Assembly: GCF_000196895.1 (NCBI RefSeq)
Contig: NC_014297.1
Coordinates: forward strand, 2,061,345 to 2,125,344
Length of the DNA: 64,000 nucleotides
Direction: 5' to 3'
Origin: Halalkalicoccus jeotgali B3
GTDB lineage: Archaea; Halobacteriota; Halobacteria; Halobacteriales; Halalkalicoccaceae
Shown: piece after piece, positions 23,723-31,753 of the stretch
Layout: each line of letters begins with the position of its first letter
How positions within the stretch are numbered: the stretch's first letter is position 1
Translations under genes and position numbers: made by a program
The notes under the pieces: generated by a model
Database searches by the model: none
The model's input: only the letters and a program-made list of their open reading frames with translations
Told to the model about the DNA's origin: nothing

Positions 23723-25663
23723 ATGACTCCGTCCCCGGACGAGCGATACGAGCCGCCCGCCCCGTTCGTCGAGCAGGCGAACGTCTCCGATCCGGGACTT
23801 TACCGGGACTTCGAGGCCGAGTGGCCCCAGTGTTGGGAACGGGCGGCCGCCCTTCTCGACTGGTACCGCGAGTACGAGCAGGTGCTCGACGACGACGAGG
23901 CACCCTTCTACGAGTGGTTCTCCGGGGGACGACTCAATGCCTCGTACAACTGCGTCGACCGCCACATCGAGGCCGGGCGCAAGAACCACGCCGCGCTCAA
24001 GTGGGAGGGAAAGCGCCGCGAAACGCGCACCTACACCTACCAGGACCTCTACGGCGAGGTCAACGAACTCGCCGCCGCCCTGCGGGATCTGGGCGTCGGC
24101 GAGGACGACGTCGTGACGATCTACCTCCCGATGATCCCCGAGCTTCCGATCGCGATGCTCGCGTGTGCGCGCATCGGCGCCCCCCACTCGGTGGTCTTCG
24201 CCGGCTTTTCCGCAGACGCCCTCACCACGCGGATGAAGCGGGCGAACTCGGAGTATCTGGTGACCTGCGACGGCTACTATCGGCGCGGCAACGCCTTCAA
24301 CCAGAAGAGCAAGGCCGACAACGCGCTCATGGCGCTCGATCGCGAGGTCACGACGGTCGTCGTCGACCGACTGGGTGGGGACCTCGATCACAGTCTCGAC
24401 GACGACCAGTACGACTACGGGGACCTCGTCCTCGCACACGCCGGGGCGACGATCCCGCCGGTGGTCCGGGACGCCGAGGACATGCTGTTTCTCATGTACA
24501 CCTCCGGCACTACCGGCCAGCCCAAGGGGGTGACCCACTCGACGGGCGGTTATCTCGCCTACGCCGCCTGGACCTCCCGGGCCGTGCTGGATCTCAAGCC
24601 CGAGGACACCTACTGGTGTTCGGCGGACATCGGCTGGATCACCGGCCACTCCTACATCGTCTACGGGCCCCTCGCCCTCGGCACGACGACGCTGCTTTAC
24701 GAGGGGACGCCCGACTACCCCGACCGCTCGCGGCTCTGGGAGATCGTCGAGCGAAACGCCGTCGACGTCTTCTACACCGCACCCACGGCGATCCGCGCGT
24801 TCATGAAGTGGGGCCAGCAGTACCCCGACGACCATGACCTCTCCAGTCTGCGCCTGCTCGGCACCGTCGGCGAGCCAATCAACCCCCGTGCCTGGAAGTG
24901 GTTTCACGACCACATCGGCGGCGGGGAGTGTCCAATCGTGGACACGTGGTGGCAGACCGAGACCGGCGGCATGATGGTCTCGACGCTCCCCGGGGCGAGT
25001 GCGATGAAACCCGGCTCGGCGGGTCCGCCCCTGCCGGGGATCAGCGCCCGGGTCGTCGACGAGGACGGTGAGGGGATCGAGCCCGGCGAGACGGGTTATC
25101 TCGTCGTCGACCGCCCGTGGCCGGGGATGTTTCGCACCCTGTACGGGGACGACGAACGCTACCGGGCCGAGTACTGGGAGCCCTTCTCCGAGGACGGAGA
25201 GTGGGTCTACTTCTCCGGGGACGGCGCGACGGTCGATTCCGACGGGTACATCACGGTGTTGGGGCGGGTCGACGACGTGATCAACGTCTCGGGCCACCGC
25301 CTCGGCACCATGGAGATCGAGAGCGCCATCGTCGGCGTCGCGGGTGTCGCCGAGGCTGCCGTCGTCGGCGGCCAACACGAGACCGACGGCACCGCCGTCT
25401 ACGCCTACGTCAGCACCGACCACAGCCACGAGCCGAGCGAGGCACTCCGCGAGCGGATCGTCGAGAACGTTGAGGACGCCATCGGGCCGTTCGCCCGGCC
25501 CGAGGCGGTCGTGTTCACGCCGGAGTTACCGAAGACCCGTTCGGGCAAGATCATGCGCCGTCTGCTCGAAAACATCGCCAATCAGGAACCGCTTGGCGAC
25601 ACCTCGACGCTTCGCAACCCCGAGGTCGTCGGCGAGATAGCGGCCGCCGGCGACGACGGGTAG
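23723..25663 (+). CDS. acs: Acetyl-CoA synthetase (acetate--CoA ligase), first copy
   Basis: 646 residues, the usual Acs size. The AMP-binding signature is MYTSGTTGQPKGVTH, with further family blocks WCSADIGWITGHSYIVYGPL, VDTWWQTETGGMM and YFSGDGA. The C-terminal RSGKIMRR contains K609, the lysine needed for adenylation and a common acetylation target. It activates acetate for entry to the TCA cycle and assimilation. It shares three long identical DNA runs with the second copy at 27505 and is separated from it by a regulator gene. Confidence 0.95.
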   Translation: MTPSPDERYEPPAPFVEQANVSDPGLYRDFEAEWPQCWERAAALLDWYREYEQVLDDDEAPFYEWFSGGRLNASYNCVDRHIEAGRKNHAALKWEGKRRETRTYTYQDLYGEVNELAAALRDLGVGEDDVVTIYLPMIPELPIAMLACARIGAPHSVVFAGFSADALTTRMKRANSEYLVTCDGYYRRGNAFNQKSKADNALMALDREVTTVVVDRLGGDLDHSLDDDQYDYGDLVLAHAGATIPPVVRDAEDMLFLMYTSGTTGQPKGVTHSTGGYLAYAAWTSRAVLDLKPEDTYWCSADIGWITGHSYIVYGPLALGTTTLLYEGTPDYPDRSRLWEIVERNAVDVFYTAPTAIRAFMKWGQQYPDDHDLSSLRLLGTVGEPINPRAWKWFHDHIGGGECPIVDTWWQTETGGMMVSTLPGASAMKPGSAGPPLPGISARVVDEDGEGIEPGETGYLVVDRPWPGMFRTLYGDDERYRAEYWEPFSEDGEWVYFSGDGATVDSDGYITVLGRVDDVINVSGHRLGTMEIESAIVGVAGVAEAAVVGGQHETDGTAVYAYVSTDHSHEPSEALRERIVENVEDAIGPFARPEAVVFTPELPKTRSGKIMRRLLENIANQEPLGDTSTLRNPEVVGEIAAAGDDG

Positions 25664-25736
25664 TTCGCTATTTTCGAGAGACGCGAACCCCCTACAGGTA
25701 GTGCTTTTCCCGAACTGAGGACCGACAGAGCTAACT

Positions 25737-25766: not shown

Positions 25767-27407
25767 ATGGCCGAAGCGAGTGCGATCGAACGAGGGGACG
25801 AGGAGGAGTGGCTCACGCGGTCGGACTACGAGCGACTGCTGGAGGCGGCGAGCACCTATCGCGAGCGCGTCCTCGTCCGGCTCGGGGGTGAGGTGGGCCT
25901 CAGGGTGACCGAGATGACGGAGATCCGCCGGAACGGGATTACGCGCGCACGAAGCGATCCGGACGGGTTCGTCCTCTCGGTCCCCGAAAACGATGGTACG
26001 AGCCGGGAGGCCTACCTTCCGGCGGGCGTCGAGCGCGAACTGACGCGGTACGTCAACAGCAACGCGATCGGGGACACGGACCGGATCGTCGACGTGACAC
26101 CGCGGCGCGTCCAGATGCTGCTCAGCGGCGTCGCCGACCGGGCCGCCGAGCGAACCGGCGAGGCGCACTTTGCCGGCGTGAGCGCCCACGACCTGCGGCG
26201 GTATTTCGCCCGGACGCTGTTGTGTGAGCGAAACGTCTCGCCACGGGTGGTGCAGGCCGTCGGCGGCTGGCAAAGCCTCGAGGCGCTCGATCCATACCTC
26301 GAAGAATCCGACCGGCAGGAGATCGTCGAGGCCCTCGGAGAGGGACGCGAGCGGTCGGAGACGAGGCTCGATGCCGTCCTGCTCGATGCCTCGACGCGCG
26401 AGGGGATCGAAACCGGCGTCTGTGAGTCGCTCGCAGAACGCTATGCGTTCGCGTGGATCGACGCGCCGGAACTGGACGGGTCGGACGCACCCAGAGTCGT
26501 CTCGGGGATCGACGCCGAATCGATCCCATCGATCCGCGAGGACCTCGGCGAGGAGTCCACGACGCGAACCGAGGAGGGGGCCGTCCTCGCGATCGCGATT
26601 CGGTACGGCGAAACCCGTTATGGCACCCTCTGTATCGGCGGTTCGGACGTTCCCGACGAACGCGAACGGACGCGTCTGGAACTCCTCGGGCGTCGGATCG
26701 GCCACTCGATCACGGCGATCCGGCGCCGAAAGCTGTTGCTTGCGGATACGATCCTCCAACTCGAGTTCCGCTGTACTGACGCGGAATCGGCGCTGATCGC
26801 CGCCACCGATCGCTTCGACTGCCGGATCGACCTCGAATCGATCGTTTCGGCCTCCGAGTCGACGCTGGTCTATTACCTGACGCTCTCGGGGGCGAGCGCG
26901 ACCGCCGTCATCGAGTTCGTCACCGACTATCGGGGAATCGAGGAGGGCCGACTCGTCGAGGGGCGTGACTCGGGCGCGCTGGTGGAGTTCGTCGTCTCGG
27001 GGGGCTGTCCACTCTCGTTGCTCACGGACTACGGCGCGACCGTCCAGCAGGCGACGGTCGAGGGCGGCGAAGCTCGCATCCTCGCCGAGTGTGCCTACGA
27101 CACCGACCTTCGGGCGCTCGTCGAGCGGTTGACCGAGGCGTTTCCCGATACCCGCCTCGTGGGGAAACAGGCGGCCGAACGGGAGGCAAGCACCCTCGAG
27201 GGCTTCGAGCAGGGGGCGATCGAGCGCCTGACCGACCGCCAGCACGCGGCGTTGCGGGCGGCGTACTTCGGGGGGTATTTCGACTGGCCCCGGGGCAGCA
27301 CGGCCGAGGAGGTCGCGGACGCCATGGGCGTCTCCTCGCCCACGCTACACAACCACCTCCGCAAGGGCCAGCGCGAGATCCTCGAGTTGTTGTTCGAGGA
27401 CGGATAA
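25767..27407 (+). CDS. Fusion of a tyrosine-recombinase-like domain with a Bat/HTH-10 regulator
   Basis: 546 residues. The N-terminal ~185 residues look like a phage-integrase catalytic domain. R46 is in GEVGLRVTEM, R80 lies near a beta-hairpin, HDLRR is at 141-145, W168 is in GGWQS and Y177 is in LDPYLEES; these cover the Arg, H-x-x-R, His/Trp and Tyr positions. The middle (~195-330) reads as a GAF-like domain and the next part (~330-470) as the Bat-associated domain. The C-terminus (~485-546) is an HTH-10 DNA-binding domain (LTDRQHAALRAAYFGGYF...STAEEVADAMGVSSPTLHNH). It lies between two acs genes, so control of acetate use is the best guess. Confidence 0.85.
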   Translation: MAEASAIERGDEEEWLTRSDYERLLEAASTYRERVLVRLGGEVGLRVTEMTEIRRNGITRARSDPDGFVLSVPENDGTSREAYLPAGVERELTRYVNSNAIGDTDRIVDVTPRRVQMLLSGVADRAAERTGEAHFAGVSAHDLRRYFARTLLCERNVSPRVVQAVGGWQSLEALDPYLEESDRQEIVEALGEGRERSETRLDAVLLDASTREGIETGVCESLAERYAFAWIDAPELDGSDAPRVVSGIDAESIPSIREDLGEESTTRTEEGAVLAIAIRYGETRYGTLCIGGSDVPDERERTRLELLGRRIGHSITAIRRRKLLLADTILQLEFRCTDAESALIAATDRFDCRIDLESIVSASESTLVYYLTLSGASATAVIEFVTDYRGIEEGRLVEGRDSGALVEFVVSGGCPLSLLTDYGATVQQATVEGGEARILAECAYDTDLRALVERLTEAFPDTRLVGKQAAEREASTLEGFEQGAIERLTDRQHAALRAAYFGGYFDWPRGSTAEEVADAMGVSSPTLHNHLRKGQREILELLFEDG

Positions 27408-27426: not shown

Positions 27427-27504
27427 TTGTCACCGAATAGTAGACTGTTTTGCACACCTAGATCCCATGTTTACTATGTCGGTTCTGTATTGACTGGCCG
27501 TACC

Positions 27505-29490
<1,986 letters not shown>

Positions 29491-29576: not shown

Positions 29577-30014
29577 ATGGCGAACGAACCACACACGGCC
29601 GACGAGATACGAACCGACGGCGGGTTATCCGACGTCGAGCGAGAAGAACAGATCGACTACATGGACGTCGAGATCAACTTGCTGAAACCGGCGACGCCGT
29701 TCATGCGCGATCACCTGCGGGTGATCTGGATCGGCTTTGCGATCTGGGCGCTGACGACGTTCGCGCCGATCACGATGACGCGTCTCGCACCCGACGTGAT
29801 GACGTCCCAGATCCCGATGATCGGGTTCCCCTTGCACTACTTCCTGCTCGCGATCGTCGGGCCGGGGGCGGCGCTGGTCCTCTCGGTCTGGTACGCGCGC
29901 AAACGGGATCAGATCGACGAGAAATACGGTATCGAACAGAGCGTCGTCGACCCGGAAACGACCGATAGCGTTTCGGACGACGCGGCGGCAACTGACGGGG
30001 GTATCAGCGAATGA
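29577..30014 (+). CDS. Small subunit of a sodium:solute symporter (DUF4212)
   Basis: 145 residues with two membrane helices (~44-64 and ~84-106). The family hallmark is a hydrophilic N-terminus followed by a paired-helix domain with FPLHYFLLAIVGPGAALVL and WYARKRDQIDEKYGI. Its stop overlaps the start of the large symporter subunit (ATGA). Proteins of this family pair with VC_2705-type SSS transporters, which include acetate and other monocarboxylate carriers. Confidence 0.9.
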   Translation: MANEPHTADEIRTDGGLSDVEREEQIDYMDVEINLLKPATPFMRDHLRVIWIGFAIWALTTFAPITMTRLAPDVMTSQIPMIGFPLHYFLLAIVGPGAALVLSVWYARKRDQIDEKYGIEQSVVDPETTDSVSDDAAATDGGISE

Positions 30015-31753
30015 TCGATAGCGTCCCGCTGCTTGCGGATTCCGCGATCGGCGCGATGGGCGATATGGTGCTTCAGACCGACGAGGGGCTGCTCCCGGAG
30101 GGGCTCAACGTCTCGTTCAAGCTCGTCCCGTCGATCATCGTCATCGGCATGATGCTCCTGTTCATCGTCGCCGGCTTCATGTTCAAGGTCGCTGACACCG
30201 ACGACATGTGGGTCGCCGGCCGCTCGATCGGGAACATCGAGAACGGGATGGCCATCGGGGCCAACTGGATGTCGGCGGCGACATACCTCGGCGTGGCCGC
30301 CACCGTCGCCATCTCCGGCGTCTACGGGCTGGCGTACGTCATCGGCTGGACGACGGGGTATTTCATCCTGCTGATCTTCATGGCCGCCCAGATGCGCCGC
30401 TTCGGGAAGTACACTGCGCCCGATTTCGTCGGCGACCGCTTCAACTCCGACACCGCCCGCGCGCTGGCGGCGATCACTACGTTCCTGATCGGGTTCGTCT
30501 ACGCGCTCGGACAGGCCCGCGGGATGGGGCTGGTCGGGATGTACATCCTCGGCGACTGGTCGGCAGTCACCGGCGGCGCGCTGACCGCCTACCAGACGAT
30601 GATGGTGGTCTTCATGGTCATCACCGTCGGCTACCTCTCGCTGTCGGGGATGCTTGGCGCGACCAAGAACATGGTCCTGCAGTACGTCATCCTCATCAGC
30701 GCGTTCCTGATCGGGCTGGTCGTCACCGGCTGGTCGGCGGGATACACGACGATTCTCCCCCAGCTCGAGTACGGGATGATGATCGAAAGTCTCGGTACGG
30801 AGTTCTCGGCACCGTTCGCCGGCGGGAGCTACTACCTGTGGATCGCGACGTGTTTCAGCCTGGTCTTCGGGACGTGCGGACTACCCCACGTGCTGGTGCG
30901 GTTCTACACGGTCAAAAACGAGCGTGTGGCCCGCTGGTCGTGCACTTGGGGGCTCTTTTTCATCTCGCTGCTGTACCTGAGCGCGCCCGCCTTCGCTGCG
31001 ATCGGCACCGCGCTCTACGGTGACCAGATCGGCGCCGTCTACGGCGATCCGGGCATGACCAGCGCCGCCGGCGACGTGCTGGTCGTGCTGGCCGCACAGC
31101 TCGCCGAGCTACCGGCGTGGTTCGTCGGCTTCGTCGCGGCGGGCGGCATCGCCGCGGCGGTCGCGACGACGGCCGGGCTGTTCATCGCCGCCTCGTCGGC
31201 GATCTCTCACGACATCTACGCGACCATCATCAACGAGGACGCGACCCAGCGCCAGCAGGTCCTCGTCGGCCGCCTGAGCATCATCCTGATCGGGGCGCTC
31301 ACGATCGTCTTCGCGCTGGACCCCCAACAGCCGATCGCGGCCCTGGTCGGGTTCGCGTTCTCGCTCGCGGCCATCGTGCTGTTTCCGATGTTCTTCCTCG
31401 GTCTCTGGTGGGAGAACACGAACCGGCCGGGCGCCCTTGCGGGCATGACGACCGGTATCATCGTCTGGTTCATCCCCATGCTCAACGAGGGGAACTTCGG
31501 TCTCATCGAGGGCGGACTCGGTATCGAAGCCATCGCGACGTGGATGCCGGCTATCGGGTCGGCACTCGTCGGGACGCCGATCGTGTTCGCGGTGACGATC
31601 GCCGTCTCGCTCGTGACCAGCGAACCGCCGCTGCGGACCAAACAGATGGTCCGACAGTGTCACAGCCCCGACCCGATGCCAAAGGACATGACCGCGGCGG
31701 ACGTCGTCGCCGAGAAGAACGGCAACCGGCCCGAGACGCCGGCGGACGACTGA
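30011..31753 (+). CDS. Sodium:solute symporter, VC_2705/ActP-like
   Basis: 580 residues with about 13 membrane helices. SSS family features include GRSIGNIENGMAIGANWMSAA near the start, the GYLSLSGMLGATKN loop, and TCGLPHVLVRFYTVKN. The C-terminal part contains AAGGIAAAVATTAGLFIAAS and FPMFFLGLWWENTNRPGAL. It is coupled to its small subunit by a 4-base overlap. Its position 3' of acs makes acetate or a similar short acid the most probable substrate. Confidence 0.9.
   Translation: MIDSVPLLADSAIGAMGDMVLQTDEGLLPEGLNVSFKLVPSIIVIGMMLLFIVAGFMFKVADTDDMWVAGRSIGNIENGMAIGANWMSAATYLGVAATVAISGVYGLAYVIGWTTGYFILLIFMAAQMRRFGKYTAPDFVGDRFNSDTARALAAITTFLIGFVYALGQARGMGLVGMYILGDWSAVTGGALTAYQTMMVVFMVITVGYLSLSGMLGATKNMVLQYVILISAFLIGLVVTGWSAGYTTILPQLEYGMMIESLGTEFSAPFAGGSYYLWIATCFSLVFGTCGLPHVLVRFYTVKNERVARWSCTWGLFFISLLYLSAPAFAAIGTALYGDQIGAVYGDPGMTSAAGDVLVVLAAQLAELPAWFVGFVAAGGIAAAVATTAGLFIAASSAISHDIYATIINEDATQRQQVLVGRLSIILIGALTIVFALDPQQPIAALVGFAFSLAAIVLFPMFFLGLWWENTNRPGALAGMTTGIIVWFIPMLNEGNFGLIEGGLGIEAIATWMPAIGSALVGTPIVFAVTIAVSLVTSEPPLRTKQMVRQCHSPDPMPKDMTAADVVAEKNGNRPETPADD

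Follow-up and report, generated by a model that had tools for sequence, protein, structure and literature searches.

The protein encoded between the two acetate-CoA ligase genes acs1 and acs2 of Halalkalicoccus jeotgali B3 is quite likely a regulator of these genes, with a tyrosine recombinase part that is non-catalytic and site-specific. Judging by its residues and those of its relatives, the protein very probably no longer cuts DNA; its recombinase part seems still to grip paired dif-like sites ahead of its own gene. The pair of dyads in the gap upstream of the regulator is new in this analysis. The window, i.e. the whole stretch of DNA analysed, comprises 64,000 nucleotides (NC_014297.1, positions 2,061,345 to 2,125,344 of the forward strand), and all positions given below refer to it. 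The nearest named match is H. paucihalophilus, at 74% identity.

Organisation of the locus

The regulator gene is an intact frame of 546 amino acids. It is placed between two acs genes, as the first-pass annotation had described; both encode acetate-CoA ligases and share its strand. The features of the locus are as follows.

23723..25663, + strand: acs1, acetate-CoA ligase (ACAS_N, AMP-binding, AMP-binding_C)
25663..25688, no strand: dyad site 1, GTTCG-N16-CGAAC (consensus TTTCG-N16-CGAAA), abutting the acs1 stop codon
25740..25765, no strand: dyad site 2, TTTCG-N16-CGAAG, with its last base 1 bp before the regulator start codon
25767..27407, + strand: regulator, composed of a degenerate tyrosine recombinase catalytic domain, a GAF-like part, BAT and HTH_10
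25809..26309, + strand: recombinase catalytic domain, residues 15-181, with R46, E49, R80, R113, R114, H141, R144, W168 and Y177 and without the hairpin Lys
26364..26741, + strand: GAF-like alpha/beta part, residues about 200-325, the lowest conservation in the protein
26745..27206, + strand: BAT domain (PF15915), residues 327-480, E 2.9e-40
27228..27383, + strand: HTH_10 DNA-binding domain (PF04967), residues 488-539, E 3.5e-18
27447..27462, + strand: conserved acs2 promoter element GTTTTGCACACCTAGA, directly upstream of the TATA-like box
27469..27477, + strand: TATA-like box of acs2, GTTTACTAT
27505..29490, + strand: acs2, acetate-CoA ligase
29577..30014, + strand: DUF4212 protein, small symporter partner
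30011..31753, + strand: sodium:solute symporter (ActP-like), syntenic with the Haloferax acetate symporter operon

The recombinase-type N-terminus that had been read from the sequence is recovered by Pfam as PF00589 at residues 15-181 (E 1.5e-9, above the cut-off). The match begins at residue 15 with no domain ahead of it; the core-binding domain that classical recombinases possess is thus absent. Pfam also agrees with the proposed Bat-associated part and HTH-10 (PF15915 at 327-480 and PF04967 at 488-539), which stand in the order typical of Bat-type proteins, and HTH_10 is the best-conserved part of the protein (88-98% within the genus and nearest relatives). For the intervening GAF-like part, position and predicted alpha/beta secondary structure fit the earlier assignment, and Pfam gives no GAF match. 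Structure prediction yields a recombinase-like fold for the N-terminal domain (191 aa, pLDDT 85.6), which matches XerA and XerH with TM 0.71-0.72 (0.71 to XerA), and a comparison of the full-length model with solved structures gives YopR/MrpR as one of its matches; the alignments behind both models were shallow, at 8 sequences. Against the NCBIfam XerA equivalog, the window protein scores 47.8 bits, below the cut-off of 220.

Distribution and synteny of the fusion

The fusion is widespread in Halobacteria. Strong matches to the regulator protein occur in 251 of 394 genomes of the class and in 58 of 86 genera; this is an upper estimate for the fusion, as the C-terminal half alone can reach the threshold. 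In a tree built without three catalytic columns (46, 141 and 177), the fusions group as one clade, all on the same side of a branch that has a support of 99. Fusion loci with both flanks have the order acs-regulator-acs on one strand; the exceptions are L108 and L117, where one acs was not found in the stretch examined, or loci that meet a contig end. A virus origin was considered and set aside, with no match in phage records and one distant relative in viral contigs.

DUF4212 and sodium:solute symporter genes follow downstream in the window and on annotated plasmids of Haloferax, Haladaptatus, Halococcus and Halocatena. In Haloferax volcanii, the syntenic unit acs7-HVO_A0155-ssf-uspA is induced by acetate alone: neither glucose nor casamino acids lead to its transcription (PMC7746861). 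The numbering, together with Haloferax gibbonsii, suggests that the orthologue in Haloferax volcanii is the gene between acs8 (HVO_A0158) and acs7 (HVO_A0156); the paper on the acetate unit mentions neither 'regulator' nor HVO_A0157 (PMC7746861). HVO_0894-0896 was discarded as the syntenic locus, the acs7/acs8 cluster giving the better fit (Haloferax gibbonsii; PMC7746861 Table 1).

Two further observations concern individual loci. In L126 (4388-6234, genome G190), two overlapping frames, one for the recombinase part and one for BAT, stand between two acs genes, which points to a frameshift or a split gene. Two families (L092, L096, L119, L121, L138 and L139) have an almost identical element, GCTAACTGTTTAGTG, just past the regulator gene, near its stop codon.

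Decay of the active site

In tyrosine recombinases, the roles of the catalytic, DNA-contact and structural residues are well established. R46, H141, R144, W168 and Y177 of the window protein stand where the first-pass annotation had located them, and in the alignment correspond to R, H, R, H/W and Y of the canonical set in archaeal XerA. Its further claim, that the whole catalytic set is kept except for a hairpin Lys appearing as R80, does not hold: the hairpin Lys is missing, and R80 is a separate residue, a second conserved Arg of the hairpin. The sequence of this hairpin in XerA is GGKGGKDR; opposite its catalytic Lys the window protein has N75, and opposite the Arg after that Lys it has R80. 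A replacement of the Lys by R80 is ruled out by stand-alone relatives, 70 of 70 of which have an invariant R80 as well as the Lys. Measured against the set R, D/E, K, H, R, H/W, Y, the window protein falls short by the K. The Lys-bearing GKDT stretch is deleted in 48 of 50 fusions, this protein among them, and none of the 50 fusions checked, the window protein included, has the hairpin Lys.

The stand-alone relatives used for comparison (n=70, from across the class) are proteins of about 200-250 aa, many of them on plasmids and annotated as site-specific integrases. All 70 have R46, the hairpin Lys, R80, H141, R144, W168 and Y177. Among the 50 fusions, His is present in 5 and replaced by Arg in 28; Tyr is found in 32, with Leu, Phe, His, Ser or Asp elsewhere, and R46 in 43. 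On the tree, the identity of Tyr changes at least nine times within the fusions, and that of His at least three times. E49, R80, R113, R114 and R144 are each present in 50/50. This pattern is one of apparently lost catalysis, with DNA-contact and structural residues still under constraint. Most Halalkalicoccus members retain His and Tyr, which leaves room for some residual chemistry, and one congener has S46 and Q141.

Conservation in homologues had been named at the outset as a point on which the recombinase reading would turn; His, Tyr and the first Arg are freely lost in orthologues, even inside the genus. Together with the absence of Lys from all fusions and of a recombination-site pair flanking the gene, this speaks against the earlier suggestion that the protein might invert or cut DNA. 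Inspection of 25.6-27.5 kb revealed no inverted pair resembling recombination sites around the regulator. Inversion over this interval was rejected as a candidate event, the inverted repeats there being imperfect and mostly within the coding sequences of acs1, acs2 and the regulator.

The dyad pair upstream of the regulator

The 103-bp gap upstream of the window regulator contains two 26-bp dyads with the consensus TTTCG-N16-CGAAA, 77 bp apart. This motif was found by reading acs1-regulator gaps side by side. The layout places site 1 after the acs1 stop codon, with position and spacing kept across Halobacteria, and site 2 up to the regulator start codon, where it probably overlaps the regulator promoter. 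Exact dyads in these gaps show a sharp peak at a spacing of 16 nt (33 instances), with 6 more at 15 nt and about none in shuffles. Across 562 kb of fusion loci, exact instances with 15 or 16 nt number 41 in the acs1-regulator gap and 7 elsewhere. With a tolerance of up to two mismatches, none of the 49 scored loci is without a site, and the complete pair is present in 42; this selection skews the base logo and leaves the exact dyad counts unaffected. The window's own two sites each have one or two mismatches to the consensus. The start-to-start distance of the sites clusters near 77, 96 and 107 bp; the arms are conserved, the interior is free and the spacing within each dyad is fixed. In L103 (3176-4570), about 1.4 kb of extra DNA lies between acs1 and the regulator, and site 2 is still beside the regulator.

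Of the 10 sites expected in five plasmid loci (Haloferax, Haladaptatus, Halococcus and Halocatena) that played no part in motif discovery, 9 are present, each in the corresponding position. Upstream of 15 Bat-type proteins without a recombinase part, there is 1 dyad match in total. The loose dyad is not rare enough in the window genome to confer specificity on its own, and TTTCG-N16-CGAAA was rejected as a genome-wide regulon finder; it is too degenerate for this purpose, with 5 exact occurrences across the genome, all of them away from the window locus.

Inverted repeats of 22-30 bp occur upstream of the stand-alone relatives as well, in many cases at a distance of 110-140 nt from the domain; TGTCGTAGTT-N7-AACTACGACA is one example. 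Nine to ten of 10 arm positions are paired upstream of 33 of the 70 stand-alone genes, compared with about 7 expected. On 29 stand-alone representatives with less than 80% identity, the fusion half-site matrix (GTTTCGTATTTTT) gives higher scores than it does on dinucleotide shuffles (p 4e-5), and higher than its reversed form gives (p 1.6e-5); these p-values are optimistic, since the genomes are related. Good matches to the fusion half-site include GTTTCGCGTTTGTTTAATAACGTGCAAC and ATTTCGTAGTTGACCAAGAACTACGACAC. Several group-A stand-alone sites have a different half-site, CGACTT, and matrix scoring finds no fusion-like half-site in group-C relatives. The group-B proteins (L182, L185, L188 and L190) share an upstream dyad, TTTCGTG(T/C)TT...AAACGTGCAA, which is a candidate recombination site of a catalytic-domain-only recombinase family.

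These sequences are most simply explained if the dyads are recognised by the recombinase part in fusions and stand-alone proteins alike, and if the site pair stayed with the fusion as catalysis vanished. A repeated, operator-like dyad pair near the putatively regulated genes is present at the sequence level. The earlier suggestion of DNA binding at inverted sites is supported by two conserved inverted sites directly upstream, which resemble those of the stand-alone relatives.

The acs2 promoter element

In 43 of 46 loci, compared with 1.5 in shuffles, the acs2 promoter contains the element TTTTGnAnAnnTAGA with a TATA-like TTTA about 8 nt further on; the distance to the start codon hardly varies. 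Most acs1 promoters are without an element of this type (2 of 28 have it). By analogy with Bat at the bop promoter, it is plausible that this is an activator site for HTH_10. In the window, 27447-27477, comprising the element and the TATA-like box, is a candidate acetate-control promoter.

Proposed mode of action and alternatives

The regulator would control transcription of the locus for acetate uptake and activation. Its N-terminal domain is probably a captured tyrosine recombinase that consists of the catalytic domain alone, a type that haloarchaeal plasmids carry today; it would have lost catalysis and kept sequence-specific dimeric binding to the dif-like dyad pair. The recombinase part would bind the dyads; at site 2, binding would repress the regulator's own transcription, and site 1 may assist through cooperative binding or a small loop. 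HTH_10 would act at a separate element, beside the acs2 TATA box, and the GAF/BAT part would sense an acetate-related signal and switch the acs2-DUF4212-actP transcription unit. The protein would accordingly have two DNA-binding ends, one for autoregulation at the dyad pair and one for action at acs2-DUF4212-actP. The direction of control is a guess; both direction and looping are held with less confidence than the non-catalytic, site-specific nature of the recombinase part. Possible, though doubtful, is a wider form of this scheme: a class-wide archaeal switch in which the dead recombinase domain synapses two dif-like sites without strand exchange, giving a signal-dependent loop at its own control region, with HTH_10 on the acs2 promoter.

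That the protein is an active or conditional recombinase, which inverts, deletes or nicks DNA of the locus and thereby switches the acetate genes, is very improbable. The window protein does have R46, E49, H141, R144, W168 and Y177, most Halalkalicoccus members retain His and Tyr, and the two dif-like dyads upstream could serve as candidate sites; however, the residue counts in the fusions (Lys 0/50, His 5/50, Tyr 32/50), the congener with S46 and Q141, and the conservation of the dyad layout in orthologues without the catalytic residues all argue against it. No inverted pair flanks the regulator gene, and since both sites lie in one 103-bp gap, recombination would just excise or flip the regulator's own promoter region. 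An equally slim chance is given to the idea that the dyads are RNA hairpins or acs1 terminators unrelated to the protein. In its favour, site 1 abuts the acs1 stop codon; it was rejected because the stems do not surpass those of shuffles in strength (z -0.6 and -1.2) and a T run is missing. The same dyad also recurs at the regulator start codon, and conserved arms, a free interior and fixed spacing suit recognition by a protein.

HTH_10 belongs to a DNA-binding family and is the best-conserved part of the regulator, and the half-site spacing of about two helical turns would also suit an HTH dimer. It is nevertheless unlikely that HTH_10, or another regulator, binds the dyads and that the recombinase part is merely for dimerisation or structural. 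Bat-type proteins without a recombinase part do not have the dyads (1 match among 15), whereas stand-alone recombinases, in which HTH_10 is absent, are preceded by comparable dyads at comparable positions; in addition, R80, R113, R114 and R144, the expected DNA-phosphate contacts, are invariant. Binding of the dyads by the recombinase part is the reading that we prefer.

If this reading is true, the regulator is a vertically conserved cellular case in which a recombinase of mobile elements was retired to serve in transcription control and kept its landing sites, and would generalise what MrpR showed in one phage. It would also be a testable candidate for the controller of acetate-induced haloarchaeal genes, the Haloferax acetate operon being known to be acetate-induced (PMC7746861).

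Comparison with known systems

The open library searched yielded no paper on an integrase-Bat fusion, which does not prove that there is none. Bat (bacterio-opsin activator) controls transcription of bop, the promoter of which has an upstream activator sequence (PMC3184054). Bat and other haloarchaeal BAT-HTH_10 regulators share the C-terminal BAT and HTH_10 with the fusion; unlike it, they have no recombinase domain, and TTTCG dyads are absent upstream of the 15 checked, bar the single match.

The nearest relatives of the recombinase domain are the stand-alone haloarchaeal 'site-specific integrases', with about 40% identity to the window domain. Like the regulator, they have no core-binding domain and have a dif-like dyad upstream; in contrast to it, they keep all catalytic residues and have neither BAT nor HTH_10. 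XerA, which acts in archaeal chromosome dimer resolution (PDB 5HXY, 4A8E), is closest to the domain among solved folds, and in sequence. Its dif site consists of 11+6+11 bp (PMC8371274), a size close to that of the 26-bp dyads. The regulator differs from XerA in its score below the NCBIfam cut-off, the absence of a core-binding domain and of the Lys, and the site pair at its own gene.

The nearest precedent is MrpR (YopR), the master repressor of the Bacillus prophage SPbeta. It has a recombinase fold and no recombinase function, and represses through a repeated element to which it binds; its authors expect further such cases (PMC10516654; structures PDB 8A0A and 8BJ6). The regulator resembles it in having a recombinase fold with lost catalytic residues, and, as predicted from sequence, in acting at a repeated operator element. 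MrpR, however, comes from a phage and stands alone; it contains a core-binding domain and retains Lys and Tyr (PMC10516654). The regulator is a cellular archaeal fusion protein in which the core-binding domain is absent and the Lys lost. What goes beyond the MrpR precedent is the class-wide cellular fusion to a sensor and HTH_10, together with the retained site pair.
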